Source: an uncultured Lachnospiraceae bacterium (GTDB lineage: Bacteria > Bacillota > Clostridia > Lachnospirales > Lachnospiraceae). From it: a DNA stretch of 64,000 bases. The stretch is taken from NCBI GenBank assembly GCA_947628955.1, contig CANRBX010000004.1, positions 1-64,000 of the forward strand. Reading direction: 5' to 3'. The position numbers and the translations under genes were made by a program. The stretch's first letter is position 1, and each line of letters opens with the position of its first letter. A model generated the notes under the pieces. It searched no databases and was not told where the DNA came from. It was given only the letters and a program-made list of their open reading frames with translations. Positions 16,332 through 32,692 of this stretch are shown piece after piece.

Positions 16332-17033
16332 ATGGATAATGCAATAGCTGTTATAACGGCCCGGGGAGGAAGCAAACGGATACCCCGGAAGAATATAAAG
16401 GAATTCTGTGGAAAGCCAATCATGGAATACTCCATTCAGGCGGCACTGGGGGCAGGCATTTTTGATGAGGTCATGGTGTCCACGGATGATTCGGAGATTG
16501 CGGACATCGCAAGAAGGGCCGGGGCCAGTGTCCCTTTCATGCGTTCAGAAAAAATGGCAAACGATTATGCAACGACGGCAGATGTATTGGCAGAAGTTTT
16601 GGAACAGTATGAAAAAGTTGGAAAACAGTTTGCTTTGATCTGCTGTATCTATCCTACGGCACCGTTTGTTACGGCAGAAAAGATTAAGAAGGCAGGAGAA
16701 ACCCTGCTTCAGTCGGATGCGGATACGCTTATTCCCGTTGTAAGATACAGTTTCCCTCCCCAGAGGGCTTTGTTGATTCGGGACGGTTTTGTCTCGTACC
16801 AGTACCCGCAATATGCCCTAACCCGGAGTCAGGATCTGGAGCCAATCTACCATGACTGTGGTCAATTCTATTTTTGCAGAATGGAACCATTCCTCTCTTC
16901 AAGGTCTTTGGTCTGCGGGAAGACTCTTCCGTATATCATTCCGGAGGAAGAGGTACAGGATATAGATACCATAGCGGACTGGCATCTTGCGGAACTGAAA
17001 TATGAGTGTCTGAAAAGGTTGGGTAGGGTATAA
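16332..17033 (+). CDS. pseF: Pseudaminic acid cytidylyltransferase (PseF)
   Basis: The 233-residue CMP-nonulosonate synthetase has AVITARGGSKRIPRKN at the N-terminus (CTP-binding loop), STDDSEIADIA, and IYPTAPFV. The DxD-type end QDIDTIADW near residue 210 is usual for NeuA/PseF enzymes. It couples CTP to the nonulosonic acid to give the CMP-activated donor. Place between pseC and pseI points to pseudaminic rather than sialic acid. The start ATG 16332 has AAGGAG 11 bases upstream. Confidence 0.93.
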   Translation: MDNAIAVITARGGSKRIPRKNIKEFCGKPIMEYSIQAALGAGIFDEVMVSTDDSEIADIARRAGASVPFMRSEKMANDYATTADVLAEVLEQYEKVGKQFALICCIYPTAPFVTAEKIKKAGETLLQSDADTLIPVVRYSFPPQRALLIRDGFVSYQYPQYALTRSQDLEPIYHDCGQFYFCRMEPFLSSRSLVCGKTLPYIIPEEEVQDIDTIADWHLAELKYECLKRLGRV

Positions 17034-17110
17034 CCGGCAGTATGGCTTAATGGGTTCTATGGGGTTCTATGGAATACGAGGTATTTTTGAAAGGTAATTG
17101 GGAGAACAGC

Positions 17111-18166: not shown

Positions 18167-18730
18167 ATGCAAAAGGAAGAATTATATTTGCGGGAAGCTA
18201 TGCTGTCAGACATAGATATGTTGTTTAAGCTGGCAAATGATGAGACTGTAAGGAAAAACGCGTTCCATATGGCTCCCATTTCTTATGGTGAGCATAAGGA
18301 ATGGTTCGGAAGGATGATAGAAGACGATTCCCAGTTGCAGTTTATCCTGATGTCAGGCAGTTTGCGTGTTGGACAGATTCGGTTGACGCTGAACGGGGAC
18401 AGTGCGGAAATTGATTACAGTATTGTTTCCGAGAAGAGGGGAATGGGTTATGGGAAAAAGATGGTACAGCTTATAAAAGGGTTATTACACACGCGATATC
18501 CGTCCATACAAAAGCTGACTGCCAAAGTGAAACCGTCAAATGCGGCATCCATTTATTGTTTTGAGGAAAATGGATTTCAGGAGACTTATGAACAGTATGA
18601 ATTTAATATGGCAGCGTACCAGGAAGAAGTAGAATTGATAGACGATAATTACTCGGGGGGGGGTATTCCTGTACTTGACGAACAACAAAAACGCCCTTCC
18701 CCTTTTCCGATGGATTTCGGAGAGGTGTGA
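18167..18730 (+). CDS. pseH: GNAT acetyltransferase (PseH-like); frame altered at a poly-G tract
   Basis: The first ~165 residues form a complete GNAT domain: LREAMLSDIDMLFKLAND, GQIRLTLNG, the acetyl-CoA loop SEKRGMGYGKKM (near residue 90), AKVKPSNAASIYCFEENGF. It should N-acetylate C4 of the amino sugar before hydrolysis by PseG. After SGG the frame crosses nine G (18655-18663), then runs into a tail of about 20 residues without family likeness and stops at 18730. With eight G the frame would instead continue into the formyltransferase domain downstream, giving one fusion of about 364 residues. As sequenced, the GNAT domain is intact and the formyltransferase is detached. Confidence 0.85.
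   Translation: MQKEELYLREAMLSDIDMLFKLANDETVRKNAFHMAPISYGEHKEWFGRMIEDDSQLQFILMSGSLRVGQIRLTLNGDSAEIDYSIVSEKRGMGYGKKMVQLIKGLLHTRYPSIQKLTAKVKPSNAASIYCFEENGFQETYEQYEFNMAAYQEEVELIDDNYSGGGIPVLDEQQKRPSPFPMDFGEV
18655..18663 (+). repeat. Poly-G tract (9 G) between GNAT and formyltransferase domains
   Basis: Nine G in a row on the coding strand, followed by TATTCC. In the present length the upstream GNAT frame leaves the formyltransferase frame. A length of 8 (or 11) G joins both domains in one frame through S-G-G-V-F-L-Y. Runs of this length are prone to slipped-strand mispairing. Three similar tracts occur in this window, all followed by TA on the coding strand. Confidence 0.85.
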
Positions 18731-19262
18731 AGCTGCAGTATTTAGCGACAGGCTGACAGTTGATGTATTGGGGCGGCTGAAACCAAGACTAGTTATCAGT
18801 TATAACTACATGTACCTGATCCCCACGGAATGTATAAGCTATATGAACGGGAATATTGTAAATCTGCACATTGCCTTGTTGCCTTGGAATCGTGGTTTCA
18901 GTCCCAATATTTGGAGTTTTATTAACGGCACACCCAAAGGTGTCACAATCCATAAGGTCTCGACCAGATTAGACGAAGGGGATATCCTGTATCAAAAGAA
19001 AGTATGGTTTGAGCCGTCAGATGAAACATTTGAAACAACCTATAAGAAACTAAATGAGGTAATTGTAGAATTGTTTCAGAAAAACTGGGATGATATATAC
19101 AGTGGAGAATGGCGTAATCATATTTACAGACAGCAGGGAGAGGGAACATATCATTCCATTAGCGATCTGAAGGAATTACGCAGGAAGTTGGATTTTAACT
19201 GGACGGATAATATTGCTGCGTTTCTGGAACGCTATAATGTCTTAAAGACGGGAGAGGACTGA
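18675..19262 (+). CDS. Formyltransferase domain (N10-formyl-THF dependent), start lost by poly-G shift
   Basis: The 195 residues read from TTG 18675 contain the formyltransferase core: VISYNYMYLIP, then VNLHIALLPWNRGFSPNIW with the Asn and His of the catalytic triad, and LDEGDILYQ with the Asp. It should formylate an amino group of the pseudaminic-type sugar. The first beta strand (VFLYLTNN) begins before TTG 18675, and no ATG, GTG or TTG lies upstream between the nearest stops and the G-tract, so the present frame lacks a good start. With 8 G it would be the C-terminal half of a GNAT-formyltransferase fusion. The paralogue at 20727 has the same core and its own ATG. The next gene starts one base after the stop. 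Confidence 0.8.
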   Translation: MTNNKNALPLFRWISERCEAAVFSDRLTVDVLGRLKPRLVISYNYMYLIPTECISYMNGNIVNLHIALLPWNRGFSPNIWSFINGTPKGVTIHKVSTRLDEGDILYQKKVWFEPSDETFETTYKKLNEVIVELFQKNWDDIYSGEWRNHIYRQQGEGTYHSISDLKELRRKLDFNWTDNIAAFLERYNVLKTGED

Positions 19263-19263
19263 A

Positions 19264-19947
19264 ATGACCAGTTATGTGATAGCAACGGTAAAATCTTGGA
19301 ATATGCAAAACTTCTATTTTTTGAAAGAAAAATTCCCGGAATATGATTTCATATTGATTACGGATAAGAAGGATCTGACATACGAAAGACTGGAAGAAAT
19401 TAATCCGCGTTTTGTTTTTTTCCCCCACTGGTCATGGATTATCCCGGAGAAAATATACAGCCGCTTCAATTGTGTTGTCTTCCATATGACCGACCTTCCG
19501 TTTGGGAGGGGAGGGAGCCCGCTCCAGAACCTGCTCGTCCGAGGAATCTATGACACAAAGGTATCCGCCATTAGAGTCAAGAGGGGAATGGATACAGGGC
19601 CTGTATATCTTAAGAAACCGTTGGATATATCCTGCGGGAACGCCGATGATATTCTTAAGAGGGTATCGTCTATCGTATTTAATGAAATGATACCGGCTTT
19701 TTTACAAAGTGATATCGCCTGCCAGGAGCAGGAAGGCAAGCCGGTTGCGTTTAAACGAAGGCTGCCGGAACAGAGCGAGATCCCATCCGGGCTTTCCCAG
19801 CGTCAGATATACGATTATATCCGCATGCTGGACGGTGAGGGATATCCGGCAGCATTTGTAAAGGCCGGACAGAACCGGATCTATTTCAGAAACGCAAGAT
19901 ATGAAGGTGGAAAGGTTTCAGCAGAAGCTTTTTTCGGAGGAGGGTAA
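19264..19947 (+). CDS. Formyltransferase family protein, second paralogue
   Basis: The 227-residue protein has the sequence FHMTDLPFGRGGSPLQNL in its formyltransferase core and MDTGPVYLKKPL with the Asp near residue 118, followed by a ~60-residue C-terminal domain (SQRQIYDYIRMLDGEGYPAA) like the small domain of methionyl-tRNA formyltransferase relatives. This layout is common for sugar N-formyltransferases in nonulosonic acid loci. It likely formylates an amino sugar, perhaps after deacetylation by the PIG-L enzyme encoded next. It starts one base after the previous stop. Which of the three formyltransferases acts on which position is unknown. Confidence 0.82.
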   Translation: MTSYVIATVKSWNMQNFYFLKEKFPEYDFILITDKKDLTYERLEEINPRFVFFPHWSWIIPEKIYSRFNCVVFHMTDLPFGRGGSPLQNLLVRGIYDTKVSAIRVKRGMDTGPVYLKKPLDISCGNADDILKRVSSIVFNEMIPAFLQSDIACQEQEGKPVAFKRRLPEQSEIPSGLSQRQIYDYIRMLDGEGYPAAFVKAGQNRIYFRNARYEGGKVSAEAFFGGG

Positions 19948-19952
19948 TAACC

Positions 19953-20696
19953 ATGAGAAACGTGCTTATTGTAGCAGCTCATCCGGATGATGAGATACTG
20001 GGCGTCGGGGGAACGGTCAAAGTCCTTGCTGACGCAGGCGTTGTGGTCAGGGCGCTGATACTGGCGGAAGGGCAGACATCCCGCACAGAGAAAAGGGAGG
20101 ACACGCCTCTGGACGTTATTATCCGCCTGAGGGAAAACGCAGCAGCAGCTGCTGAAATTATGGGATTTACGAGCATTGATTTCTGCGATTTTCCCGATAA
20201 CCGGATGGACGGCGTGAACCTTCTGGATATTATAAAAGTAGTATCACAGTATATAGAAAAGTACAGTCCAGATACGATTTTCACGCACCATCATGGAGAC
20301 TTAAATATAGACCACAGGCGAGTCTGCGAAGCTGTGCTGACAGCATGCCGTCCAACCGGAAAGGATGCAGTCAAGCGGATATATGCTTTTGAGACCCCAT
20401 CGTCTACGGAATGGAATTATACATACGAGAACAGCTTCCGGCCGAACGTTTACGTTGATATCAGCGGAGCGATAGAAGTGAAAGCGAAAGGAATGAACTG
20501 TTATGAAAGCGAACGGACGGAATTTCCGCACCCGCGCAGCGAAGGGGCCCTCCGTGCTTTGGCCCGGTATAGAGGAAGCAATTCCGGAATGGAGTATGCG
20601 GAAGGGTTTATGCTTTTAAGAGAGACTGTGGAGATTCGGAAGCTCAGAGATTGGCATCCAATAGGAATTGGGGGGGGGTATAAGTCCATGGGCTGA
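19953..20696 (+). CDS. PIG-L/LmbE-family N-deacetylase with poly-G tail
   Basis: The 247-residue protein has the zinc motif AAHPDDEILGVGG at the N-terminus and HHHGDLNIDHRRV near residue 110, both complete. It should remove an N-acetyl group from a sugar, freeing the amine for the formyltransferases around it. The domain normally ends near GFMLLRE (residue 225). The remaining ~20 residues cross nine G (20670-20678) and stop at TGA 20694-20696. With eight G the frame would go on for 12 more codons and end in ATGA exactly over the start codon of the next gene at 20727, the usual coupled arrangement in this operon. Confidence 0.88.
   Translation: MRNVLIVAAHPDDEILGVGGTVKVLADAGVVVRALILAEGQTSRTEKREDTPLDVIIRLRENAAAAAEIMGFTSIDFCDFPDNRMDGVNLLDIIKVVSQYIEKYSPDTIFTHHHGDLNIDHRRVCEAVLTACRPTGKDAVKRIYAFETPSSTEWNYTYENSFRPNVYVDISGAIEVKAKGMNCYESERTEFPHPRSEGALRALARYRGSNSGMEYAEGFMLLRETVEIRKLRDWHPIGIGGGYKSMG
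20670..20678 (+). repeat. Poly-G tract (9 G) in the deacetylase tail
   Basis: Nine G on the coding strand followed by TATAAG. The observed length closes the deacetylase frame 31 bases before the next start codon. Eight G would move the stop to 20728-20730 (present numbering), overlapping ATG 20727 and coupling translation of the third formyltransferase. Ten G would stop at once (GTA TAA). The tract could therefore tune expression of the downstream gene rather than inactivate the deacetylase. Confidence 0.8.
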
Positions 20697-20726
20697 TACT
20701 GGCAGTCAATGCCGGGTGCTGGCGGC

Positions 20727-21308
20727 ATGAAGATCCTATGCTTGTATAACAATATCTGTGCTGAAGAACTTTTTGACTGGCTTCAGAAACAGGGGCATGA
20801 GGTATACTTATGCAGAGAACAGCTAGAAGACGTATGGTGTGTACGGCAGGAGTTTGACCTTGCAGTCAGTTATACTTACCGGTTTATCCTTAAGGAAAGT
20901 ACATTAAAAGCCCTTAGCGGTAATGTGGTGAATCTTCATAATTCCTTCCTGCCATGGAACAGGGGAGCTGACCCCAATATATGGAGCATAGTTGATAGTA
21001 CACCGCGTGGAGTTACCCTTCATTATATGGATTATGAACTGGACAAGGGTTACATTATTGCTCAGAGGTTTGTGCCGATGAACAGGGAGAAAACGCTTGC
21101 GGAAAATTATTATATATTGGATAAAGCAGCAAAAGAATTGTTTAAAGAAGCATTTATATATTACGATTATTGGGAGTCACTAAAGAAGAAAGTGGTGGGT
21201 TCTGGAAACTATCACTCGGTAAAAGATGGAGAAAGAATCAAAAAAAACATTTCTTCTTATGAAATGAGAGCGGATGAGTTGATACATATCTGTAAAGGCT
21301 TCGGATAA
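20727..21308 (+). CDS. Formyltransferase family protein, third paralogue
   Basis: The 193-residue protein starts with MKILCLYNN (the first Rossmann strand) and has the full core VNLHNSFLPWNRGADPNIW and a YELDKGYIIAQ segment with the Asp. It lacks the C-terminal domain of the second paralogue. It is closest to the detached formyltransferase at 18675 and shows what that one's N-terminus should look like. It probably transfers a formyl group from N10-formyl-tetrahydrofolate to an amino sugar. ATG 20727 begins the fold; the frame is open back to ATG 20709, which would add only MPGAGG. No strong ribosome binding site is seen, so coupling to the deacetylase may matter. Confidence 0.83.
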   Translation: MKILCLYNNICAEELFDWLQKQGHEVYLCREQLEDVWCVRQEFDLAVSYTYRFILKESTLKALSGNVVNLHNSFLPWNRGADPNIWSIVDSTPRGVTLHYMDYELDKGYIIAQRFVPMNREKTLAENYYILDKAAKELFKEAFIYYDYWESLKKKVVGSGNYHSVKDGERIKKNISSYEMRADELIHICKGFG

Positions 21309-21333
21309 GGAGCAGAATTGAGGTATAGTTATT

Positions 21334-22374
21334 GTGATTTATATCAGGACAGATGGAAATGGAGAAATAGGAATCGGGCATGTCATGCGCTGTCTCTCCA
21401 TCGCGGAGGAATATAGACACCAGGGCGGCGAGGCCATATTTTTGATGGCAGATGAAAGGGCGGCAGATCTGATTAAAAAGAATGGTTTTTCTTATATATG
21501 TCTGAACTCGGTGTGGAATGATCTTGAGCAGGAACTGGATACCATGATCGAAATCACTGAAGAAAAAAAGATTCCGCTGCTGCTGGTAGATTCCTATTTT
21601 GTTACAGAGAAATACCTTTCTGCGTTAAGAAAACACACGAGGATTGCATATATTGATGATATAGATCAGTTTATCTACCCGGTGGATATTCTAATTAATT
21701 ATAACGTTTATGCGGAGCAGCTAGATTATCCATGGAGGTATAGGGATGCGGGAGTGACGGCAAAGTTTGTACTCGGATGCAGGTATGCGCCTTTGCGTGA
21801 GGAGTTCAGGGGGAGAGTGCGTTCCATTTCTCAACGGGTGCAAAAGGTGCTGATCACAACCGGAGGAACCGATATCTATGATGTGACGGGTCATTTGCTT
21901 GAGCATTTAAGTAAACAACGCTGGTTCCCGGAATTGGAGTTTGAGGTGATTGCAGGAAGGTTTAACAGTCACATTGGTGAACTTGCTGCCAAATGGGAAC
22001 GGTATGATAATATACGTTTCCATTACAATGTCACGGACATGGCAGACTATATGATGGCATGTGATGTGGCTGTAACTGCTGGCGGAAGCACTGTGTATGA
22101 ACTAATGGCCTGTGGGACACCTGCGATTGTTTATACATTAGCAGATAATCAGAGGGACATTGCGAAAACAGTTTCCGAGATGGAGTTAATTCCGTGGGCG
22201 GGAGATGTGAGGAAAGATATTAACTTATGTTGTTGTACAATTATGAATATAATTGAGGAATATATCGGAAATTATAGAAGAAAACAGGTTAGTAGACGGA
22301 TGCAGAAGTTAGTGGATGGGTATGGAGGCAAGAGACTGGCAGCATTGCTAAGGACGTATGATAGTAGGTTTTGA
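21334..22374 (+). CDS. pseG: UDP-2,4-diacetamido-2,4,6-trideoxy-beta-L-altropyranose hydrolase (PseG)
   Basis: The 346-residue GT-B-like hydrolase starts at GTG 21334 with IYIRTDGNGEIGIGHVMRCL, the PseG signature with the catalytic His in GHVMRC. The C-domain has LITTGGTD, and VTAGGSTVYELMACGTP near residue 245. It removes UDP from the diacylated altrose sugar so PseI can condense it with PEP. A GAGG-like site lies about 10 bases before the GTG. It is the last gene of the + operon; 215 bases of non-coding sequence separate it from the insertion sequence. Confidence 0.93.
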   Translation: MIYIRTDGNGEIGIGHVMRCLSIAEEYRHQGGEAIFLMADERAADLIKKNGFSYICLNSVWNDLEQELDTMIEITEEKKIPLLLVDSYFVTEKYLSALRKHTRIAYIDDIDQFIYPVDILINYNVYAEQLDYPWRYRDAGVTAKFVLGCRYAPLREEFRGRVRSISQRVQKVLITTGGTDIYDVTGHLLEHLSKQRWFPELEFEVIAGRFNSHIGELAAKWERYDNIRFHYNVTDMADYMMACDVAVTAGGSTVYELMACGTPAIVYTLADNQRDIAKTVSEMELIPWAGDVRKDINLCCCTIMNIIEEYIGNYRRKQVSRRMQKLVDGYGGKRLAALLRTYDSRF

Positions 22375-22589
22375 TCCCTTTTTAACTTTTTAAAATCCTC
22401 AGAGAATTATTACTATGAAACAAAACCTTCCGGGTAGCCAAGAAAGCACAGACTGCCCCTATTGTTGCTGATCTCCCAAGAAGTCCATAGGTAGAACCCA
22501 ATCAAGCAGAGCAATAAAAAGTCAATTCAACTTATCGACAACACCCCTATCAAACTTAAAAAGGTTGATTCTGAATTGAACTGTCAGGC
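22375..22589. other. Gap between the + operon end and the IS110 gene
   Basis: No gene is seen in these 215 bases. An 8-bp inverted repeat (22522-22529 and 22572-22579, TCAATTCA / TGAATTGA) with a 42-base spacer lies close to the transposase stop. No clear intrinsic terminator with a T-run is visible after pseG, so the end of the + transcript is not defined. Part of this stretch is probably the right end of the insertion sequence. Confidence 0.3.
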
Positions 22590-24150
22590 TTATGCGGCAA
22601 CTGCTGGAGCCTTCCAGCCAAGCGCTTTTAACTTCTTAAGGTACGCATTGATTTTGCGTTCCTTATTGAACTGATTGTAATAATCAGCTCCAAGATCCTT
22701 GAAAACAACTCCATCCTTTAGGATGTGGTATATCGCAATCAGCATGGAATGAGCTACTGCCACACAGGCACGCTTTGACCCACGGTGGGCGCTGATCCTC
22801 ATAAACTGCGCATGAAAGTAGGACTTCTTATTTTTTACAGCTGCATGTGCACAGGTGACCAGTGTCGTCCGCAAGAGGGAGTTCCCTTTTCTTGTTTTAC
22901 CGGACTTCCTTTTCCGGGCACTTTCATTGTCACCAGGGCATAATCCAGCCAGGATGATATGTGCTTATCTGTAGGAAAACGGGCCATATCTGTGCCAATG
23001 ACGGAGATGATGGCCTGGGCACTGGTGTTCCCTATGCCGGTCACATCCTGGATGGCCTGCGAAGCCTGCTTTTCTTCCGGTTTCATAAAGTTGTCGATCT
23101 CATCATCCAGGTTTTTGATGTGAGCATTCAGTTCATCCAAGTGGGCAAGAAGCTCTTTCATCATCCTGCGCTGGAGAGGGGACATCACGCCATTCAGGTC
23201 ATCCATGATCTGCTCCTTTGTGGCTTTGAGGTTATGGGCAATGATTTTCCGCTCATACATCTCATCGTATTTTGCCTCGTCAATGGATTCTCCGGTAAGG
23301 AGATATTCCAGGATACTGCGAGCACTTTTGCCATTGATGTCGGATACAGTTCCGGACAGCTTGATGTTGGCCCTTCCAACATTTTTTGAAGTCGATTCAG
23401 CTCTCTGGTACGTTCCCCCACAAGGCTCTTGCGGTAACGGACTAATTCTCTTAGTTCCCTCTGATCTTTGTCAGGGATGTAACTGGGCTGAAGCAGGTCT
23501 GCGATCCATTCCGCATCTTTTACGTCTGTTTTCCGGCCAGGGACAGCTTTCATATGGCGGGCATTGACCACCATGGCGTTCAGACCGGAAGATTCAAGGA
23601 TGTTATACAGAGGCTTCCAATAAGAGGCTGTGCTCTCCATGGCGACCATTTCACAGCCGCCTTCCCTGAGCCAGTCAGCTAATTCAAGAAGTTCTCTGGT
23701 TGTTGCACCAAAGTCACGTACTTCCTGCTTTCTGCCGCACCGGAAGCAGGCAACGATAAGCTTTTTGTGCACATCAATACCACAACATTTGTCGTAAATT
23801 TTATCCATACTGGCATCTCCTTCGTAAAATTTACGGCACGGTACTCTGTCTCTTATCATTTTACTATACGTCCTTTTGCCTATGAGATGGCTGGACAGGT
23901 GGTGGTGTGAATGAGAGTACCTGAAATCAGTTTAGATAACGAGCTGCAGGCTCAAAATAAACACGATCTTTACCGTTACTATAAATATAAATGGAAATAC
24001 CAACAAACTCAATACCTTACAGCCTGCACAGTTTCATTTATGGTGGTTCCAAGTGTGCGGGCATGGGGGTTTAGATAATATTTCCATCCTCTCTGAATAT
24101 TCCGGTACACCGCACCGGAATATTTACGCCTGGTGCCTGGTCAGATCCGG
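22520..24150 (-). mobile_element. IS110-family insertion sequence (ends not defined)
   Basis: The element consists of the frameshifted IS110 transposase (22590-23808) and non-coding flanks. IS110 elements have no terminal inverted repeats, so the ends given are approximate. In this family the non-coding end upstream of the transposase encodes a guide ('bridge') RNA. Here that end is 23809-~24150, which holds no gene and contains an 11-bp perfect hairpin (24096-24124). It sits exactly between the convergent tails of two glycan operons and breaks no recognisable gene. Confidence 0.6.
22590..23808 (-). pseudogene. IS110-family transposase, two single-base frameshifts
   Basis: Three overlapping frames read together give one transposase of about 405 residues. 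The N-terminal DEDD RuvC-like domain has GIDVHKK, VAMESTASYWKPL and GRKTDVKDAEW. The C-terminal Transposase_20 domain has IQDVTGIGNTSAQAII, and a Lys/Arg-rich segment leads to the end. The first shift is at about 23371, where a run of G on the coding strand is one short after KMLEG; the second is at about 22951, where W-A-G reads out of frame. One G inserted at each site restores a continuous protein. ATG 23808 has GGAGAT upstream. Both shifts are in G-runs, so decay and homopolymer miscalling are both possible. Confidence 0.88.
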
Positions 24151-24250
24151 CAGCAAGCGGAGTGCGCATAACGGCCCTTGGCAGAAATCTTTATGCAAGT
24201 CGATAAGAATTATTACCTACTTACCTTAAAAGTAAATATTCATATATCTC
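23809..24250 (-). other. Gene-free stretch upstream of the IS110 transposase, with a perfect hairpin
   Basis: About 440 bases without a gene lie between the transposase start and the 3' end of the acyltransferase. The most distinct structure is an inverted repeat at 24096-24106 and 24114-24124 (AATATTCCGGT with its exact complement, 7-base loop). No T-run follows on either strand, so it is not a typical terminator. It may belong to the guide-RNA end of the IS110 element or be the end of the - operon's transcript. Confidence 0.45.
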
Positions 24251-25275
24251 TCAATATACGCATCCTTTAATTGGCGTATGCGCGATAAACATAGATAGAA
24301 AATAGCAGATAATATATATTCCGCAGCATCCTAAAAATGATCCCTCTGGCCAACCATACTGTGGCTGTATAAACCAACATAGCAGATTATGGACTCCAAA
24401 ATGCAGACAGTAAATACCCAATGTATAATCGGTTAATCTTATAATCACATTTTTTATTTTGCCTGTGCACCAGTTAAAAGGTAATAGCCAAAAAAAGAAT
24501 ACGAAACACCCTGCTACGATAATCTTTTCTATCCCTGCACAACCATAGCCTTCAGGTACTGTGAACACTGGATATATAATTAAAAAAGAAACAACAAGAA
24601 ACAACCCTGTAATCAGACTTTTTCTTGGTAACATCTCTTTGATCCGTTCGAATACTTTAAAATGCCCTGTAATCAAACCGCATACCGCTGCTATCGGCAG
24701 CATTTCAATCAGGCGTCCTAACGGATATCTTAATTCAAAGCGCATCTTTCCCCAAAGTGATAAATTAATCCCCGAATATTGTAATACTAATGAGAGCAGA
24801 CTCAGCATTCCAAAAACAATCCATTTCCTATCAGATTTCCAGACCTTGACTATAGTTGAAAACAGTATCGTCAACCATATAAGATTCACCTGATACCATA
24901 GCACGCCATCAAGGTTGTGTGAATGTCCCGTTATTAATTGCCAAAACAGATCTTTTATGCTGATATCTAAGGCTACCAACCCGATAATATTGAACAACTT
25001 ATATATAAGATAATAAGCGCATCCCCAAAATATATGCGGAAATATCAACCTTTTCAATCGCTTTTTGAGTTTTACTGTTACCCCCCCTCTCTCAAAAAAG
25101 CATCCGCTGTTAAATACATCGACATGAACATAAATATTGGCACATGATAAGCACGCATTCTAAAAAACAGATAACGAATTCCGGTTCCAGAAACACTAGA
25201 TCTCCAAAAATGAGTCAGGATAACTTCGAAACACATCCATGCTCTCAAAATACATAAACCAACGTTTTTCTTCAT
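24251..25275 (-). CDS. Acyltransferase_3 family membrane protein, out of frame at a poly-G tract (phase OFF)
   Basis: Two frames make one gene. ATG 25275 starts VGLCILRAWMCFEVILTHF, with the conserved His of the Acyltransferase_3 family, and runs to FLREGG and a TAA directly after seven G. The other frame continues with VTVKLKKRLKRLIFPHIFWG and about nine further membrane segments to 24251, ending near FIAHTPIKG. One more G (eight) joins them into a protein of about 340 residues. The family O-acetylates or otherwise O-acylates surface sugars at the membrane. It is the last gene of the - operon. As sequenced it makes only a 65-residue stub, so the gene is OFF. Confidence 0.87.
25081..25087 (-). 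repeat. Poly-G tract (7 G on coding strand) inside the acyltransferase
   Basis: Seven G on the - strand, after GAGA and before TAACAG. Seven G creates an in-frame TAA right after the tract. Eight G gives GGG GGG GTA ACA and restores the acyltransferase frame. It is the only tract of the four that is one short rather than one long of eight, as slippage in both directions would produce. Confidence 0.85.
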
Positions 25276-25420
25276 TTCGTATCCCTGCCACTACATTTGT
25301 ATACTGCAGCATTAAGAAACATGCCCAGATAATCTAGCAGCGCCGTCTTTTCCATATAGCGCACTGCTTTCCCGTGATTATCCCGGCCCTGCCACCCTGT
25401 AGTATCCATTCCTGGCGCCC

Positions 25421-26413
25421 TTAGCAGCCCACCCTCAGCAGCTGCGCTTTCCCATGGAGGCGGCACAAAACGGATGACGCCGGCACAAAGATGCTGTCCC
25501 CTTTGAAGAACGGGATCATCCCACCATTCCAGCAGAGGACCCCGCAGCCATCCGTGCAGAGCAGCACGTTGAACGTGCCCTCCCCGGTCTGCAGACCGGC
25601 CATCCCGCGGACTCGCTCCGTGTTCAGCAGGATCCGCTCCGTCTGGAAGTACCTGCACCTGCACAGTAGCTCCGCCGCGAAGCCCGGCTCATACCTGAGG
25701 ACGCGCATCGGCTGCCTAGGCTGTATCCCTGCCTTCAAATCCGCAACATCCAGGGCCTTCTGTACATGCAGTTCCCGCGCCCTCCCATTCTTATCTGTCC
25801 TCCCGTAATCGTACAGTCGGTAAGTCAGGTTGGAATTCTCCTGCACTTCTGCCACCAGGGCGCCGGCACCCAGTGCATGGACAGTGCCCGCCCTGAGGAA
25901 GAACACATCGTTCTTCTTCACCCTCACATACTGCAGATGCGCTGGCACAGTCCCGTCCGCGGCAGCCCGCTCAAGTGTGCCGGGGTCCATGTCGTGCAGG
26001 AAGCCATATGCCAGCTCCGTCTCTTTCCCGGCATCGAGCACGTACCACATCTCCGTCTTCCCAGGCTGCCCTCCCTCATGTTCGCGGGCATACCCATCCG
26101 AAGGATGCACCTGGACCGACAGCTTCTCCGACGCATCGATCAGCTTCACCAGGACCGGGAGCTGCCCGGGCGGGAAGCCATGGGACAGGGGATGGCTGCC
26201 TACGTATCCCGGGTTCTCCATCATGACCTGTGAAAGCGGCATGCCCCTGTGCCTCCCGCCCGCTACAGTACTCTCCCCGTCCGGGTGTGTCGAGCATTCC
26301 CACGACTCCGCAAGCGGGGAGAGGTCCGTGTCCTTCCCGAAATCATCCTTCAGCCTGCGGCCGCCCCACAAATAGTCCTTATACGCTGGCCTCAGCAGAA
26401 ACGGCTCATGCAT
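25421..26413 (-). CDS. manA: Mannose-6-phosphate isomerase, class I (ManA)
   Basis: The 330-residue protein begins FLLRPAYKDYLWGGRRLKDDFG, a typical type I phosphomannose isomerase start. It has SVQVHPSDGYAREHEGG (zinc-binding Gln/His) near residue 98 and GKTEMWYVLDA, then FLRAGTVHALGAG with a zinc His. It interconverts fructose-6-P and mannose-6-P and feeds ManC directly upstream, 6 bases away. The gene is GC-rich, as is the whole block to gmd. About 145 bases without a clear gene follow before the acyltransferase. Confidence 0.92.
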   Translation of the reverse strand: MHEPFLLRPAYKDYLWGGRRLKDDFGKDTDLSPLAESWECSTHPDGESTVAGGRHRGMPLSQVMMENPGYVGSHPLSHGFPPGQLPVLVKLIDASEKLSVQVHPSDGYAREHEGGQPGKTEMWYVLDAGKETELAYGFLHDMDPGTLERAAADGTVPAHLQYVRVKKNDVFFLRAGTVHALGAGALVAEVQENSNLTYRLYDYGRTDKNGRARELHVQKALDVADLKAGIQPRQPMRVLRYEPGFAAELLCRCRYFQTERILLNTERVRGMAGLQTGEGTFNVLLCTDGCGVLCWNGGMIPFFKGDSIFVPASSVLCRLHGKAQLLRVGC

Positions 26414-26419
26414 CCCGCC

Positions 26420-27739
26420 TCAGTCCTCCAGTCCATATTTCTGTTTGTCATGGACGCTGATATCTTTCCCCAGCTGAACCTCGATCATCTGCAGCTCCGT
26501 GACTGCCCTGACCGTATGGCGGCACCCGGCCTGCATGGTGACCACGTCCCCCGCACGGATCTCCTGCTCCATGCCGTCCACGACAGTCTTTCCGCACCCG
26601 GACGTGACAACCCATACCTCGTCCCGGTTCCGGTGGCTGTGGTAGTTCATGTGCTGCCCTGCCCCCAGCGTGACTTTGATCGTCAGGCTGCCGTCGGAAA
26701 CCTCCAGGACCCGGTAGGTTCCCCACGACTTGTCCGCAAACATCACCGTCTGGTCCAGCTGGTCCACATATGGTTTAATATAGGAACTCTGTTCCTTGTC
26801 TGAGACCAGGATCCCATCCGCGGACGCGCTTATGACCACATCGTGGAGCCCTGTGGCAAGGACCGGGATGTCCAGCTCGTTAATGATATGCGTATTGCTG
26901 CAGGTTGCATCCATCCTGGCGTTGCCGACCGTCTGCTCATCCATTGCCTCCGTGAGCGTGTTCCAGGTCCCCAGGTCCTTCCATCTGCCGGCAAACCGCA
27001 TCACCCGGATATCCGTTTCCTTCTCAACGACTGCGTAGTCAAAGGATATCTTCTCTAATGCCCCATACCGGGCATAGAAATCCCAGTAATCCGTAAAGCC
27101 GGCCAGCTGGTGTGCCTTCTCCAGTATATACCCGATCCGGCAGGCGAAAACGCCGCCGTTCCACAGCGCACCCTGGGAAATGTAACTTTTTGCGGTCTCT
27201 GTATCCGGCTTTTCCTGAAACGTCTTTACCCGGCTTATGCGGTCTTCAGATTCCGGCAGGATGTAGCCGTACTTCTCACTGGGGTAGGTCGGTTCAATCC
27301 CCATCAGGACAAGGCCGGCCTCTTTTTCCCCGGCCAGTTTTCCTAGTTCCTTCAGGGCCTCAAAATAATCGTCATCCACCAGGGGATCGACCGGGCACAC
27401 GACCACCGGCTCCTCCGGACTCACCCCGGAGACATCCCGCAGGCAGGCCGCCGCCAGCGCGATGGCCGGAAAGGTATCCTTGCGGCATGGTTCTACGCTG
27501 ATCCCCACATCCATCCCCAGCTGGTTATGGAGGGACGACACTTGAGCCCTGCCCGTCGCAACGATGACCCGTGCATCCGGGTCGGCCTGTCGGACCTGGC
27601 GGTACACCCGCTGCACCATGGACTCATAGATGCCGTCGTCCCTTTTGAATATCTTTATGAACTGTTTTGACCTGATGTCATTGGAAAGGGGCCACAGGCG
27701 CCTGCCCGAGCCCCCGGAAAGAAGTATGATGTTCATCAC
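26420..27739 (-). CDS. manC: Mannose-1-phosphate guanylyltransferase with cupin domain (ManC)
   Basis: The 439-residue protein has an N-terminal nucleotidyltransferase domain, LLSGGSGRRLWPLSND with RSKQF, VCPVDPLVDD and FQEKPD, and a C-terminal cupin from about residue 345 (GQHMNYHSHRNRDEVWVV). It makes GDP-mannose from mannose-1-P and GTP. The cupin half resembles the isomerase module of type II enzymes but is short, and a separate ManA follows. A phosphomannomutase is not in the window. The donor feeds Gmd at 33682 and, through it, Fcl and the ColD-like enzyme. ManC begins 24 bases after the ColD-like gene. Confidence 0.92.
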   Translation of the reverse strand: MMNIILLSGGSGRRLWPLSNDIRSKQFIKIFKRDDGIYESMVQRVYRQVRQADPDARVIVATGRAQVSSLHNQLGMDVGISVEPCRKDTFPAIALAAACLRDVSGVSPEEPVVVCPVDPLVDDDYFEALKELGKLAGEKEAGLVLMGIEPTYPSEKYGYILPESEDRISRVKTFQEKPDTETAKSYISQGALWNGGVFACRIGYILEKAHQLAGFTDYWDFYARYGALEKISFDYAVVEKETDIRVMRFAGRWKDLGTWNTLTEAMDEQTVGNARMDATCSNTHIINELDIPVLATGLHDVVISASADGILVSDKEQSSYIKPYVDQLDQTVMFADKSWGTYRVLEVSDGSLTIKVTLGAGQHMNYHSHRNRDEVWVVTSGCGKTVVDGMEQEIRAGDVVTMQAGCRHTVRAVTELQMIEVQLGKDISVHDKQKYGLED

Positions 27740-27763
27740 GTACCCCGGCTGTCCCTCTCCTGT

Positions 27764-28918
27764 TTATGCGTTCTCCAGTGTCCGGACCAGGTAGTCGATC
27801 TGGTCCCTCATCTTCCGCGAATGGTTGCCGACAAAGAACCCGTTCTCATGGATATGGTTCGCGTTCCCGAGCGGCCCGCAGACCGTATGGTCCATGTAGT
27901 CCAGGGCTTTCTGCCTCGCGAAGTTCCCGGCAACGATCGGGCGCACCTCGATCTGCGCCTCCCGGAGCGCGTTTATGTAACGGCCCCGCTCCCCTGCTCG
28001 CTCTTCCGGGAGGACCAGGGCGAACCCGAACCACGAGGAACGCCCTGTCTCCGCCTGCGTCCGGAACCCTGTCGTGCCGATCTTTTCCATAAAATAAGCA
28101 GCGTTCTCCCTGCGCTGCTCCACAAACCTGTCCAGTTTTTTCAGCTGTTCCAGCCCGGCCGCCGCCTCGATCTCCAGGGGCCTCACGTTGAACCCCGGCA
28201 TGATGAAATTGAAGCTCTCATAGAACGGGTCCCCCATCTTCGTGTAAACGGACGACCCTGCCGGAAGGTGCCGGGTCCAGCCGTGCGACCGGATGGAGAG
28301 CATGTAGTGGCAGAGCTCCTCATCGTCCGTCAGGCTCATGCCGCCCTCCATCGTGCAGAGGTGGTGCGAATAGTAGGTGGAGTAAGTGCCGATGCACCCG
28401 AACGTCCCCGTATATCTCCCGTCCAGGGAGGCCCCCATGGACTCGCAGTTGTCCTCGATCAGGATCAGGCCGTATCTCCTGCAGATCCCGCAGAGCCGCC
28501 CATAGTCGTTGGGGTTCCCCAGCAGGTTGACGGCCATGACCGCCCTGGTGGCAGGGGTCACCGCCTTCTCCAGCTCCTCCAGGTCCACGTTCAGCGTGCC
28601 GGGGTCGATGTCGACGAACCGGAGCTTCAGCCCCATCTGGGCGAGCGGGAAGTAGGTCGTGCTCCAGGAGACCGCCGTGACGAGGACCTCGTCTCCCTTC
28701 TTCAGCCTCCCGGCATAGACCAGGGCCGCTGCGGCCAGGAGGTTCGCCGAGGAGCCGGAGTTGGACATAACGGCATACCTCGCCCCGAAATGGTCCGCAA
28801 ATGCCTTCTCATACTCACTCACGTTCGTTCCCATGGTGAAATGCCGGGAATCAATCACCCTGTGTGCCGCCTGGAGTTCTTCCTGCCCCCAGGTGTCATC
28901 TGATAAACTGTAGATCAT
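27764..28918 (-). CDS. colD: GDP-4-keto-6-deoxymannose 3-dehydratase (ColD-like)
   Basis: The 384-residue PLP enzyme of the DegT fold has His where aminotransferases carry the PLP lysine: TYYSHHLCTMEGG near residue 185. This replacement defines ColD and the E1/RfbH 3-dehydratases. The start (SLSDDTWGQEELQAAHRVID), AVSWSTTYFPL, VNLLGNPND, EDNCESMGA and the end GLFVGNH-like NGFFVGNHSRKM agree closely with ColD of colitose loci. It removes the C3 hydroxyl of GDP-4-keto-6-deoxymannose, using PLP and glutamate. ManA, ManC and Gmd supply the substrate. The colitose finishing enzyme ColC is not seen; a split transketolase and SDRs stand in its place. Confidence 0.9.
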   Translation of the reverse strand: MIYSLSDDTWGQEELQAAHRVIDSRHFTMGTNVSEYEKAFADHFGARYAVMSNSGSSANLLAAAALVYAGRLKKGDEVLVTAVSWSTTYFPLAQMGLKLRFVDIDPGTLNVDLEELEKAVTPATRAVMAVNLLGNPNDYGRLCGICRRYGLILIEDNCESMGASLDGRYTGTFGCIGTYSTYYSHHLCTMEGGMSLTDDEELCHYMLSIRSHGWTRHLPAGSSVYTKMGDPFYESFNFIMPGFNVRPLEIEAAAGLEQLKKLDRFVEQRRENAAYFMEKIGTTGFRTQAETGRSSWFGFALVLPEERAGERGRYINALREAQIEVRPIVAGNFARQKALDYMDHTVCGPLGNANHIHENGFFVGNHSRKMRDQIDYLVRTLENA

Positions 28919-28940
28919 TTTTCTATCCGCCTTTCGCTGT

Positions 28941-30005
28941 TTATATGCCGGGATCCTTTTCTTCCAGGTAATATCTGACCATGCGTGAAAAGCCTTCCCG
29001 GTTGCTGTAGATCTGTCCCCACCCCAGCCCTTTCAGTTTCTGGTTGGACAGTCTGATGAAGTTGATCCCTTTCCCCTTTCCGAACCTGTAACCCTCATCC
29101 GGCTCCTTCCCGATCAGGGCCGACCGGATGCCAGGGTCGGCGCCCGCCATCCATGCGAGGACGTCATCCATTTTTACGATCTCATCGCCGCCGGCGTTAT
29201 AGGCTTCTCCGCTCTTTCCTTCCAGCAGGACCAGCAGTATGGCAGCCGCCATGTCCGCGATGTAGGTATACTGGATCACGGAATCCGGATCCCTGTAATA
29301 GTCGATATCCGTCCCCTCGAGTATCTGCCTGATGACGCGTGGGATGATCCTCGTATCCCTCTGCAGGTCAAATGTCGGGCCATAGGTATGGCAGATGCGG
29401 ATGATGGAGACCGGCACTTTATACTGCCTCCAGAAGGCCGCCCCCATCTGTTCGGAAAGCTTTTTCGACTCGATATAGCTTGACCTCTCACCCAGGGGAT
29501 CCACGATCCCGTAATCCTCTTCCGTCAGGACCGTCTTGTCCGTCCCACCCTCCCCGTAAATGGAGTTCGAGCTGAACAGGAGGAATTTCCTTACGCCATT
29601 CTTTCTCGCATGCTGCAGAAGATGCCAGGTGCCAATCACGTTCGGGCTGATGACATCCACCGGCGACTCCACAAAGGCTCTCGTACTCGCAGGGCTTGCT
29701 GCATGCAGGATGTAATCAAAATGAATATCTGGTATGTCATTGTTTTCGAAATCGAACCTGACAAGGTGGAGATATGCCTTGTCAAGATGCTGCCGGAACG
29801 CCCTTTCCGCCCTCGCGGTATTCCTGCACTGCAGGTATAGCCGGAGGTCGTACCGTCCCGCGATATACGCGAGGAACCAGGACAGATAAGTCGTGATCAT
29901 CCCGTTCGCACCGGTGATGAGGACCTGGCAGCCCCGCAGCTTTTCTAATCGGCCGCCGTATGTGGACAGCAGTTTTTCAAACTCTTCTGAAAGGATCCTG
30001 TTCAT
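28941..30005 (-). CDS. NAD-dependent epimerase/dehydratase (extended SDR)
   Basis: The 354-residue protein has the nucleotide-binding loop LITGANGMITTYL near residue 29, LHAASPAST, FSSNSIYGEG and YIESKKLSEQ as YxxxK near residue 180. The start ATG 30005 overlaps the stop of the transketolase N-subunit gene (ATGA), so the longer open frame to 30158 is not used. Its neighbours are the ColD-like dehydratase and the split transketolase, so it probably reduces or epimerises a GDP-bound deoxy sugar, perhaps the C2-branched intermediate. GxxGxxG is slightly altered (GANGMIT). No exact function can be given. Confidence 0.75.
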   Translation of the reverse strand: MNRILSEEFEKLLSTYGGRLEKLRGCQVLITGANGMITTYLSWFLAYIAGRYDLRLYLQCRNTARAERAFRQHLDKAYLHLVRFDFENNDIPDIHFDYILHAASPASTRAFVESPVDVISPNVIGTWHLLQHARKNGVRKFLLFSSNSIYGEGGTDKTVLTEEDYGIVDPLGERSSYIESKKLSEQMGAAFWRQYKVPVSIIRICHTYGPTFDLQRDTRIIPRVIRQILEGTDIDYYRDPDSVIQYTYIADMAAAILLVLLEGKSGEAYNAGGDEIVKMDDVLAWMAGADPGIRSALIGKEPDEGYRFGKGKGINFIRLSNQKLKGLGWGQIYSNREGFSRMVRYYLEEKDPGI

Positions 30006-30835
30006 CCTGTCCCCTCCATGGCAGTCCTTATCCGCACCTTCTGCAGTTCCGGCAGAAGTTCCTGTGCCTTTTCCGGATCCGGCATGTACCCATGCATCAG
30101 CGGGATGCCGCTGACGGACGGCAGTCCGGCGCCCTTGACCGTATCGGCGATAATGCACAGCGGTTTCTCCCTTCCGGCCCCTGCAGCTTCAAATGCCCGG
30201 CCCAGCTCCCCGTAATCATGCCCGTCTATCTCCATGACGTCCCAGTTCATGGCCTCCCATTTCAGCCCCAGTGGTTCCAGGCCGAGCATGTGCTCGGTAA
30301 AGTCGGAACAGCCCAGGCGGTTCCGGTCCAGGATCACGGCCAGATTGTCCAGCCTGTTATGTCCGGAAAACATGGCCGCCTCCCAGATGGAGCCTTCATA
30401 GCATTCGGCGTCCCCCACGACACAGTAGACGCGGCCGGCCGCACCCTGCTTCTTCCTGCCGGCCGCCAGCCCCGCCGCAAACCCAAGCCCCATCCCCAGG
30501 GATCCTCCGTAGAAATCAAATCCGGGCAGCACCAGGGCTTTCAGCTCCGATATGTCGCCCCCGATCTTCAGATGCCCGTCCAGGTAATCCCTGCCGATCA
30601 TCCCCAGGTCCTCAAAGATCGGGTAGAACATGCCGGCCCCATGGCCCTTGCTCAGCACGACGGCATCCTTTTCCGGGTCGATCACGTTGTAATACAGGTA
30701 GGAGAGGAACTCGGTCTCTGAAAATGCCGTCGTCAGGTGTCCGAACCCCAGCCTCGGGAAGATCTCCAGGAAACGCCGTCTCAGCTCATAATTCTTTTCA
30801 ATGAAAGCTTCTTCTGTAAGTCGTCTGTTCTTCAT
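30002..30835 (-). CDS. Transketolase-like N-terminal (TPP pyrophosphate) subunit, copy 2
   Basis: The 277-residue protein has the TPP-binding domain: SKGHGAGMFYPIFEDLG, GSLGMGLGFAAGLAAG, VVGDAECYEGSIWEAAMF (GDxxxxEG), and VILDRNRLGCSDFTEHMLG with the Asn-type end. It matches the N-half of a split transketolase and pairs with the C-half encoded directly upstream. Together they would move a two-carbon unit from a ketose donor. Lying between a ColD-like 3-dehydratase and GDP-sugar SDRs, the pair is placed to attach a two-carbon branch to a 4-keto sugar; this is inference. The gene overlaps both neighbours by 4 bases. Confidence 0.83.
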   Translation of the reverse strand: MKNRRLTEEAFIEKNYELRRRFLEIFPRLGFGHLTTAFSETEFLSYLYYNVIDPEKDAVVLSKGHGAGMFYPIFEDLGMIGRDYLDGHLKIGGDISELKALVLPGFDFYGGSLGMGLGFAAGLAAGRKKQGAAGRVYCVVGDAECYEGSIWEAAMFSGHNRLDNLAVILDRNRLGCSDFTEHMLGLEPLGLKWEAMNWDVMEIDGHDYGELGRAFEAAGAGREKPLCIIADTVKGAGLPSVSGIPLMHGYMPDPEKAQELLPELQKVRIRTAMEGTG

Positions 30836-31755
30836 GCCATTCCCTCCAGGTGAAGGATGTCCTGCAGGACCGCCTCAGTGGCCAGCCCATTCCTGTCATG
30901 GATCAGCTGCCAGTCCTGCAGGATACTCCCGTCATACCACCGGATCCCTTTCCGGAGCACCGGGATGGACATCCCATGGTCTGACAGCAGTTCCAGAACC
31001 ATGCTGCCGAACCCTCCCGGCAGGACATTGTCCTCCAGCGTTACGATCTGATGGGCTGGTACCATCTCCTCCATGAGGGCTTCCCGGTCAAACCCGGTGC
31101 TGAAGATGTCGACCACCCGTATGTCTACCCCCATTCTGCCCAGCTGCTCCCGAATCTCGCCTGCCTTCCTGGCCATGAACCCGTATGATGCGAGCACGGT
31201 ATCCCCGGTCCCGGTACTGATATACCCCCTGGAAAAATCGATGCCCGCAGCAGGGTAAACCGCCCCGCTTATCCGCTTGTCAAACCTTACATACACCGGC
31301 CTTCGGACGGACAGTGCATAGTCCAGGCAGCATCTTGCCATCTCCTCACAGGAAACGTCAACCGTCACCAGGCCTTCCAGGCACCTCGTCAGCGTATAAT
31401 CCTCGATCGGCATATGGGTATATCCCGCCTGGGCCGAACAGGTCCCGGCATTCAGCCCGGCAAGGATGACCGGGAACTGATGCGAGGCCAGGAGGTTCCT
31501 GACCTGGTCATAGGCCCTCGTGACTGGGAACGGGTTCAGCCCGTAAGCGACCACGCGTTCCCCGCTGCATGCCAGGCCCGCGGCGACTGCGATCAGGTTC
31601 TGCTCGGCGATCCCGACACTGATGTACCGCTCCGGGTAATCCCTCCGGAAATCGTCCAGGCTTGGGGCCCCTAGGTCCGGTGTCACCACCTTGATATCCA
31701 TGCCGCTGTTTGATTTTTCATAAACGTAATGAAAGAATGCATCCCTGACTGTCAA
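30832..31755 (-). CDS. Transketolase-like C-terminal (pyrimidine-binding) subunit, copy 2
   Basis: The 307-residue protein carries the transketolase Pyr and C-terminal domains: VTPDLGAPSL, ERYISVGIAEQNLIAVAAGL with the catalytic Glu, HMPIEDYTLTR, VRFDKR, and the C-domain RVVDIFSTGFDREAL with VTLEDNVLPGGFGSMV. It completes the N-subunit gene that follows with ATGA overlap. In this operon the C-subunit comes first, the reverse of the other transketolase pair at 46298-48102. The two pairs are thus separate acquisitions, not a recent tandem duplication. Confidence 0.83.
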   Translation of the reverse strand: MTVRDAFFHYVYEKSNSGMDIKVVTPDLGAPSLDDFRRDYPERYISVGIAEQNLIAVAAGLACSGERVVAYGLNPFPVTRAYDQVRNLLASHQFPVILAGLNAGTCSAQAGYTHMPIEDYTLTRCLEGLVTVDVSCEEMARCCLDYALSVRRPVYVRFDKRISGAVYPAAGIDFSRGYISTGTGDTVLASYGFMARKAGEIREQLGRMGVDIRVVDIFSTGFDREALMEEMVPAHQIVTLEDNVLPGGFGSMVLELLSDHGMSIPVLRKGIRWYDGSILQDWQLIHDRNGLATEAVLQDILHLEGMA

Positions 31756-31805
31756 ACTGATTCTCCTTTGAATGCATCATCCCCTTCCTGGTCTCAGATC
31801 ATAAA

Positions 31806-32679
31806 TCACAGATTAATCAGAACGCTTTTTAAAGAAAGCATTGTTTTCAAAACCGTGTTGTCCATCAGTATCGACAACGCGCGCCTAGCTCTGAAGATCC
31901 TGTCATCCTCTGCCATCTTTATGGGAATGATGAGATTTTCCGGTAAGTTATATTTCCGTACAAGTCTCATCCCCACATCATACTTTGACAGCTCCTCATC
32001 CCCGCAGATATTCACGGTTTCCGGCAGGGAATCCGGATGCTCCTCCAGCAGCCGGACCGTAAGGTACGCGGCAGTCCCGAAATCAAGCATACTCCGGAAT
32101 GTATCCGAAAACAGCTCGATAGGAATGCCAGACCGGACATTATCCATGATGGTATCCTGGAAATGTTTGCGGCCAGCCGTAAGACTGGGCCCGGTCAGCA
32201 GTGCGTAGCGGAAGGAATGCCCTCCGTAATGGGCCGCCACAGCTTCCCCGGCCATCTTCTGGACTCCATACATGCTCACAGGGACCGGTCTGTCGGTCTC
32301 CGTATAACGGTATCCTGCCTGACTGTCCCCATACACTGCCTCTGATGAAGTAAATATGAAAACCACATCCCTGCTGATCCTGCTGATCAGATAATCAAGG
32401 CCTACCACATTCGTATTCCACGACATCCATGGGTCCGCCTCTATCTGTTCGGGACTGGCACAGGCAGAGAGATAGATGATCTTGCACGGTTCCCGGACGG
32501 AATTGACAAAGCTTATCAAACCATCCAGGTCTGTTTTACTGCTTACATCGCATTTTATGTGCTTTGTATTACCCCCCCCCAGTGCGGGACACGGTTACGA
32601 CTTCCTCTTTTGTCTTTCTTTTTAACTCCGAAACAATATAAGAACCCAGGAACCCGGTTCCTCCTGTGATAATGTACAT
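31806..32679 (-). CDS. NAD-dependent epimerase/dehydratase, out of frame at a poly-G tract (phase OFF)
   Basis: ATG 32679 opens a perfect SDR start, MYIITGGTGFLGSYIVSEL, and runs 33 codons to VSRTGGG. There nine G (32572-32580) put it onto TAA. The second frame carries on with TKHIKCDVSSKTDLDGLISF, YLSACASPEQIEA, FTSSEAVYGDS and MYGVQKMAGE (YxxxK) to the stop at 31806. Eight G give GGG GGG GGT AAT and one intact protein of about 290 residues. It probably reduces or epimerises a GDP-deoxyhexose, as it lies between Fcl and the transketolase pair. In the sequenced state only a stub is made. Confidence 0.87.
32572..32580 (-). repeat. Poly-G tract (9 G on coding strand) inside the SDR gene
   Basis: Nine G on the - strand after CGCACT and before TAATAC. 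Present length: stop codon TAA at once. Eight G restores the Rossmann-fold SDR. The tract lies 33 codons after the start, a common place for translational phase switches in surface-glycan genes. Confidence 0.87.
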
Positions 32680-32692
32680 AAACATTCCTCCG

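Follow-up and report, generated by a model that had tools for sequence, protein, structure and literature searches.

Switches that depend on slipping homopolymeric tracts are known mainly from pathogens. In the flagellin-glycosylation locus of Campylobacter jejuni, for example, the reading frame of pseudaminic-acid-modifying genes such as Cj1295 depends on runs of 8–10 G (PMC3068675). In Bifidobacterium breve a G-tract joins or parts two open reading frames (ORFs) of a sortase-pilus locus, the second of which has no active initiation of its own (PMC9187656). The present analysis concerns a 64-kb stretch of DNA (the window) from an uncultured Lachnospiraceae bacterium, which lies on contig C4 of a 136-contig, 3.5-Mb genome and makes up 1.8% of it. 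Two sugar operons in the window carry four poly-G tracts, which probably form a slipped-strand contingency set that switches surface-sugar enzymes of this probable gut commensal, a judgement on switching that is drawn from assembled sequence.

The window resembles the C. jejuni locus in having several tracts within one glycan locus and in the modification of pseudaminic acid, but it belongs to another phylum and to a likely commensal, its tract-bearing genes encode formyltransferases, an acyltransferase, and a short-chain dehydrogenase/reductase (SDR), it has tail and fusion tracts besides intragenic ones, and switching is proven in C. jejuni and predicted here (PMC3068675). With B. breve it shares an ORF-joining G-run in a gut commensal, whereas that case concerns pilus genes of Actinobacteria with measured length mixtures and this one glycan genes (PMC9187656). 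Phase variation in Clostridia is described for Clostridioides difficile, where it proceeds by recombinase-driven promoter inversion and not by homopolymer slippage (PMC11868660). Stop/start overlap of neighbouring genes with a weak downstream ribosome site is likewise familiar from a GeneTack survey, which places coupling in a different class from phase variation, whereas here a tract would switch the coupling itself (PMC3711429). In the open-access literature searched (family, class, or phylum with phase variation), seen in part and with most subscription papers and preprints outside it, no description of such tracts in this family was found, and the tail-tract coupling switch and the signature of G-runs followed by TA were not met there either, including under coupling with phase variation.

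Exactly four runs of at least seven G or C occur in the window, with lengths of 9, 9, 7, and 9, as located by run scan and frame arithmetic:

Tract 1, 18655-18663 (+): G9 at the GNAT/formyltransferase joint
Tract 2, 20670-20678 (+): G9, 48 nucleotides before the likely next start; eight G in the closest related operon, L053
Tract 3, 25081-25087 (-): G7 (C7 on the plus strand) inside an acyltransferase gene
Tract 4, 32572-32580 (-): G9 (C9 on the plus strand) inside an SDR gene

The run scan reproduced the coordinates and lengths given in an earlier note on this DNA, and all four tracts have G on the coding strand with TA directly after. At its assembled length each closes a reading frame or a stop/start overlap, and by frame arithmetic unit changes in length shift the genes between open and closed frames, as expected of slipped-strand switching. 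Other marks of such switching are also present: the homopolymer lies in or at the end of a gene and is rare elsewhere in the genome, and the genes at the tracts are surface-related, both in the window and on contig C3 of the same genome. The earlier note had taken eight G as the canonical length; this one length does open all four tracts in the window, joining the GNAT to the formyltransferase, bringing the deacetylase stop into an ATGA overlap, and restoring the acyltransferase and SDR frames, but relatives are open at 8, 9, or 10 G, so eight was rejected as a general open length.

Long G-runs are scarce in this genome, with 13 runs of at least seven (four 7s, three 8s, and six 9s) against about 421 expected if the dinucleotide model of the window held for the whole genome, and four of these 13 fall within the 1.8% represented by the window (binomial p = 7e-5). 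A previous estimate of about 0.4 chance runs of nine or more per window agrees with the 0.56 given by the dinucleotide model and the 0.31 given by codon-shuffled genes, compared with three found. In 1000 codon-preserving shuffles of the 63 listed genes, approximately 4.9 runs of seven, 1.0 of eight, and 0.3 of nine are expected, and 1, 0, and 2 are seen in these genes, the third 9-run of the window falling between listed ORFs. Runs of six are reduced to 2 against 12.7 expected in the same genes, while the 9s remain. The signal is the gap in run lengths together with the genome-wide depletion, not the raw count. Three more runs of eight or nine lie within 26 kb of contig C3 (at 65455, 73798, and 91239), in glycan genes: one of eight G cuts an Acyl_transf_3 gene exactly at the tract, and those of nine G lie in the C-terminal part of an RmlD-type SDR and in a GT2-GtrA protein, both of which are open. 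This part of C3 (62000-94500) is a second surface-sugar region, in which LicD stands beside the tract-bearing acyltransferase, SDR, and GT2-GtrA genes.

The plus operon encodes a pseudaminic-acid pathway, in which PseC, PseF, PseI, and PseG all pass the curated NCBIfam cut-offs, polymerase-like and Wzx-like genes precede the Pse genes, and a GNAT, three formyltransferases, and a PIG-L deacetylase are interposed among them. The GNAT, compared with Pfam only, occupies what we take to be the position of PseH. The minus operon contains a GDP-mannose 4,6-dehydratase-like protein, a DegT aminotransferase, epimerases, transketolase halves, and Wzx/Wzy-like genes, and by this content it is most likely a second polysaccharide locus. 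The genes concerned are as follows:

15100-16299 (+): PseC-type aminotransferase (NCBIfam TIGR03588 above cut-off, 470.6 vs 423.5 bits)
16332-17033 (+): PseF-type cytidylyltransferase (TIGR03584 above cut-off)
17069-18142 (+): PseI-type pseudaminic acid synthase (TIGR03586 above cut-off)
18167-18730 (+): GNAT acetyltransferase (Pfam PF13302), ending 64 nucleotides past tract 1 at the assembled length
18664-19262 (+): formyltransferase 1 (Pfam PF00551), with GTA at the start position and TTG 18675 as first usable start
19264-19947 (+): formyltransferase 2 with a C-terminal domain (Pfam)
19953-20696 (+): PIG-L-family deacetylase (Pfam PF02585), with its stop 15 nucleotides past tract 2 at the assembled length
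20727-21308 (+): formyltransferase 3 (Pfam), likely start ATG 20727 by comparison with L053
21334-22374 (+): PseG-type hydrolase (TIGR03590 above cut-off)
25078-25275 (-): acyltransferase, N-terminal part up to tract 3 (partial Pfam PF01757; alignment)
24251-25057 (-): acyltransferase, remainder in another frame (partial Pfam PF01757; full-length relatives)
32569-32685 (-): SDR, N-terminal part with a stop directly past tract 4 (translation; start position read by eye)
31806-32571 (-): SDR, remainder in another frame (listed ORF 31806-32519; Pfam PF04321/PF01370; relatives)

The closest operon, L053, comes from isolate Lapin-014 (from a rabbit, judging by the name) and aligns with the window over 3102 bases at 87% identity with four gaps (3, 2, 3, and 6), where the only frame-changing gap lies at the poly-G and leaves eight G instead of nine with one codon added. 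In separate assemblies, tracts at the deacetylase end have lengths of 8 (L053), 9 (L054), and 9 (L060), compared with 9 in the window, and tracts at the junction of an ATP-grasp and a GNAT gene have 8 (L054) and 10 (L120). A run of 10 stands just before the formyltransferase gene of L067, with no long upstream frame in the available sequence. Tract lengths differ at homologous junctions in this comparison between species. Runs of seven or more are absent near these genes from 14 of 19 sequences in the comparison with other homologous operons, which makes the occurrence of tracts patchy among relatives. A DNA search for the operon in 41 relative genomes returned, besides the genome itself, two 31-base matches at E near 1e-3. 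In L057, L058, L064, and L121, ORFs of 505–545 amino acids lie just upstream of formyltransferase/deacetylase genes, a length that would allow PseI plus a further domain.

Tract 1 likely acts as a fusion switch, which joins or parts two enzyme domains. Since the GNAT gene ends 64 nucleotides past the tract at the assembled length, the GNAT and formyltransferase domains are apart, and formyltransferase 1 has GTA instead of a start codon at its N-terminus, its first usable start (TTG) lying 11 nucleotides past the tract. Single proteins with both the PF13302 GNAT and the PF00551 formyltransferase domain occur naturally, with at least 11 among 120 of 125 relatives in a search with a length limit of about 360 residues, and GG or GGG stands at the joint in 8 of these 11, for instance in P0050 (TFGGGVKILFLTNN). 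L053 contains no formyltransferase 1, and its GNAT shares the last codons and stop with formyltransferase 1 of the window, which would fit an origin of the L053 GNAT from a fused ancestor by in-frame deletion.

Tracts 3 and 4 are likely classic intragenic switches. By alignment, the cut in the acyltransferase falls in a loop through which full-length relatives read on; the relative closest to it, P0002 (83%), is likewise present only from a start past the tract, and P0003 and P0004, which lie on short contigs, are shorter still. The cut in the SDR falls past its second strand, by our reading of the fold. SDR relatives are open at the tract site in P0025 (73%) with GGG and in P0031 with GGGGG, as well as in P0032, P0033, and P0035, which have no such G-run. 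Conversely, the SDR of P0026 (86%) starts at the same late Met as the window copy, and the N-terminus of P0028 looks to us out of frame. A search for the SDR in the family met it in 3 of 200 genomes including this one, the other two being open (296 and 300 amino acids) with no G/C run of six or more in their loci, and a search of the genus for the acyltransferase met it in this genome only among 47.

Tract 2 is predicted to make or lose translational coupling between the deacetylase and formyltransferase 3. The earlier note had described an ATGA overlap of the deacetylase stop with the next start at one tract length, and this overlap holds, although the next start is most likely ATG 20727, equivalent to the overlap start of L053, and not 20709. 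In L053 and L060 the deacetylase frame continues through the tract, and its stop overlaps with the next ATG as ATGA. The deacetylase of the window ends 15 nucleotides past the tract and that of L054 9 nucleotides past it, with one other frame ending in ATGA or GTGA; the overlap in the window thus exists only in another tract frame. The sequence before ATG 20727 is nearly that of L053, in which the one resemblance to a ribosome site is GGTG, and formyltransferase 3 may depend on coupling to the deacetylase.

Similar tail tracts occur in nucleotide-sugar genes of relatives, mostly 48–67 nucleotides before the next start, where one length leads to ATGA or GTGA and the others stop early. Three epimerase-family genes among four successive genes in L180 (in the genome of L053) bear tail tracts of 10, 9, and 11, and an epimerase pair in L181 (in the genome of L054) bears others, all 65–66 nucleotides before the next start; the family assignments cover ten proteins hand-picked from tract neighbourhoods. 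In L044 a tail tract stands between a sugar transferase and a PIG-L gene. A count was made in the DNA fetched for analysis, with runs longer than 14 and repeated contexts skipped, in which 26 rows were reduced to 25 unique tail tracts (L149 being the window tract again) and then to 21 by dropping four with no following start. Among the tail tracts of at least eight G, one of the frames runs to an overlap with the next start in 13 of the 21, seven at the assembled length and six one step away, and in 10 of these 13 the start lies 48–67 nucleotides past the tract; the tract at L155/L181:6262, classed as intragenic by the script despite an overlap, is outside this count. Tract-free neighbouring pairs (n = 584) overlap in the real frame in 97 cases (17%) and in an alternative frame entered 48–66 nucleotides upstream in a mean of 11%, and 13/21 against 26% expected gives p = 6e-4 as a guide.

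The dinucleotide after the tracts is itself unusual. In the DNA fetched for analysis, with runs within 30 bases of a sequence end skipped, TA follows 974 of 15778 runs of three G (6.2%), 46/826 runs of five, 8/94 of six, and 3/18 of seven, but 18/42 of eight, 22/29 of nine, 4/10 of ten, and 1/2 of eleven, or 45/83 runs of at least eight against 46/826 runs of five (Fisher p = 4e-28). Exact G9-TA occurs 340 times against 89 for the mirrored control, an imperfect null for TA, in 397 genomes of the family, and 283 against 61 without the outlier G208. This outlier, a 1.6-Mb family genome that is 68% complete, has 57 exact G9-TA and 28 mirrored controls, far above other family genomes. The excess is weak in the wider phylum, with 41 against 23 in 149 genomes (summed by hand) and 36 against 23 without the present genome (one-sided p = 0.06). 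In a flank analysis that skipped runs within 40 bases of the downstream end, the flanks are A-rich at -6 to -10 with C or T at -1. In 21 of the 45 TA cases, TAA or TAG follows immediately in one of the three frames. A -10 box past the tract was rejected, as position 6 is T in 15/44, and so was selection for an immediate stop as sole cause of TA, as TAT is as frequent as TAA and TGA occurs in three cases. The TA signature argues that these runs are a maintained element and not random homopolymers, with TA itself lacking an explanation. More tentatively, at somewhat less than an even chance, 8–11 G followed by TA may be a defined element of a multi-locus poly-G contingency system in gut Lachnospiraceae and near relatives, often placed 48–67 nucleotides ahead of the next start in tails of nucleotide-sugar genes. 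On this reading the G-count would determine whether the ribosome arrives at the overlapping start, and such a phase-variable coupling switch, repeated in series as in the three epimerase-family genes among four, would combine sugar decorations.

A scan of 30 genus loci gave 20 ORFs, of which about seven at or near tracts are of surface or glycan type, namely three pilins, a Polysacc_synt_2, a UDP-sugar dehydrogenase, an FrhB-type, and an MptE-like protein, the last two of which presumably belong to glycan loci; the remainder concern transport, a methylase, a nuclease, conjugation, and other functions, and three have no domain. Gram-positive pilin genes with in-frame tracts of 8–9 G (L023, L024, and L034) recall the pilus switch of Bifidobacterium. 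DNA methyltransferase genes (Dam and N6_N4_Mtase) stand at 8-G tracts followed by TA in L014 and L033, where phase-variable methylation is possible.

Phase variation is the best reading of the four tracts because they lie in surface-glycan genes, frames close at the tract, relatives show other lengths or open forms, and the runs cluster in the genome. The same evidence supports the phase-variation reading of the earlier note, in which switching within a clone is still inferred and which held neither the tail-tract coupling architecture nor the natural GNAT–formyltransferase fusions nor the TA signature. A sequencing or assembly error, by which the genes would be open in the cell and the tracts miscounted, is very improbable; all four tracts are one base from open, and database lengths of Bifidobacterium G-tracts differ from careful counts (PMC9187656), but 35 of the 36 A/T runs of 7–9 in the window lie inside listed open frames and separate assemblies carry tracts at equivalent junctions, some open and some closed, both of which speak against error, as do the closed or truncated copies in P0002 and P0026, and miscounting makes neither the TA signature nor the depletion of intermediate runs. 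Ordinary frameshifts fixed in decaying genes have scarcely better prospects: each tract is flanked by frames that are otherwise open, and tracts persist at corresponding junctions of distant species against a depletion of G-runs elsewhere, even though G-runs are mutation hot spots and close SDR and acyltransferase relatives also look truncated.

Programmed transcriptional or ribosomal slippage, which would yield both products from one DNA length, deserves somewhat more weight but is unlikely. Long G-runs are slippery and the immediate TAA or TAG in one frame of 21/45 TA cases would suit it, but lengths vary from 8 to 11, some relatives are already open, which recoding would not need, and no single conserved slippery sequence of fixed length, the mark of programmed frameshifting, was found. 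Unlikely to the same degree is a DNA or RNA signal, such as a protein or small-RNA target, whose length would tune expression with frame effects secondary. It could accommodate the excess of TA after runs of at least eight with TAT as common as TAA, for which frame effects alone give no explanation, as well as the many tracts of the family with no long upstream frame (below), and Helicobacter RepG targets a variable G-repeat (PMC8295292), but the stop/start overlaps and natural fusions are frame-specific and frames close exactly at the intragenic tracts.

Several observations weigh against phase variation by these tracts or its extension to the family. The data comprise one strain with assembled lengths only, and no switching was observed; tract lengths in databases can be wrong, as the Bifidobacterium study cautions (PMC9187656), and a 2025 review holds that a locus with no spontaneous reversion is not evolved phase variation (PMC11868660). 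Long runs are not in excess of codon usage (about six runs of at least seven expected in listed genes and three seen), and of the nine runs of at least eight in this genome, two (C1 and C2) lie outside recognised genes and one (C17, at 36463) where a gene for a BTAD-type regulator ends. Contig ends or start calling may account for truncated relatives on short contigs, and GG is absent from the joint in 3 of the 11 natural fusions. The tail overlaps fall to 11/21 (p = 0.009) when two doubtful ones, a TTG-start and a 130-nucleotide case, are dropped, and as the tail-tract sample is enriched for homologues, its p-values are guides only. A draw of one G9-TA tract per genome from 30 family genomes gave 8 intragenic tracts, 3 tails, and 19 tracts that lack a long upstream frame, several of which lie close to the 5' end of a downstream frame. 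None of the tails has a strict overlap, though L215 has another overlap type one step away; at 3/30 in this even draw, tail tracts are no general feature of the family.

Under phase variation, replication slippage would change tract lengths within a population, so that two tracts would break a gene inside its frame, one would fuse or part two enzyme domains, and one would make or lose coupling. The cells would be predicted to vary in the N-formylation of a pseudaminic-acid-type polysaccharide and in the O-acylation or sugar type of another. This would be a multi-locus case of slippage in a family of gut commensals and, if true, surface glycans of commensal Clostridia that are seen by host immunity and phages would vary by a route other than promoter inversion. 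It would also add an architecture in which a tract at the 3' end of one gene controls the next.

An IS110-type transposase lies between the two sugar operons as two overlapping ORFs (22835-23859, -) with no long G-run; the earlier note had placed two IS110 frameshifts in G-runs, which is not borne out, since the G/C runs of at least four in 22801-23900 are limited to one GGGG and one CCCCC, and one IS110 copy was met, not two, the window not having been searched for another. Within the minus nucleotide-sugar operon, transketolase is present as two genes for its N- and C-terminal parts, with ORFs overlapping by 4 nucleotides (30002-31755, -). A glycosyltransferase ORF (9669-10880, +) has a C-terminal-type domain, Glycos_transf_1 (residues 3–79), ahead of an N-terminal-type one, Glyco_transf_4 (138–333), and may be either a fusion of two half-genes or an enzyme with permuted domains.

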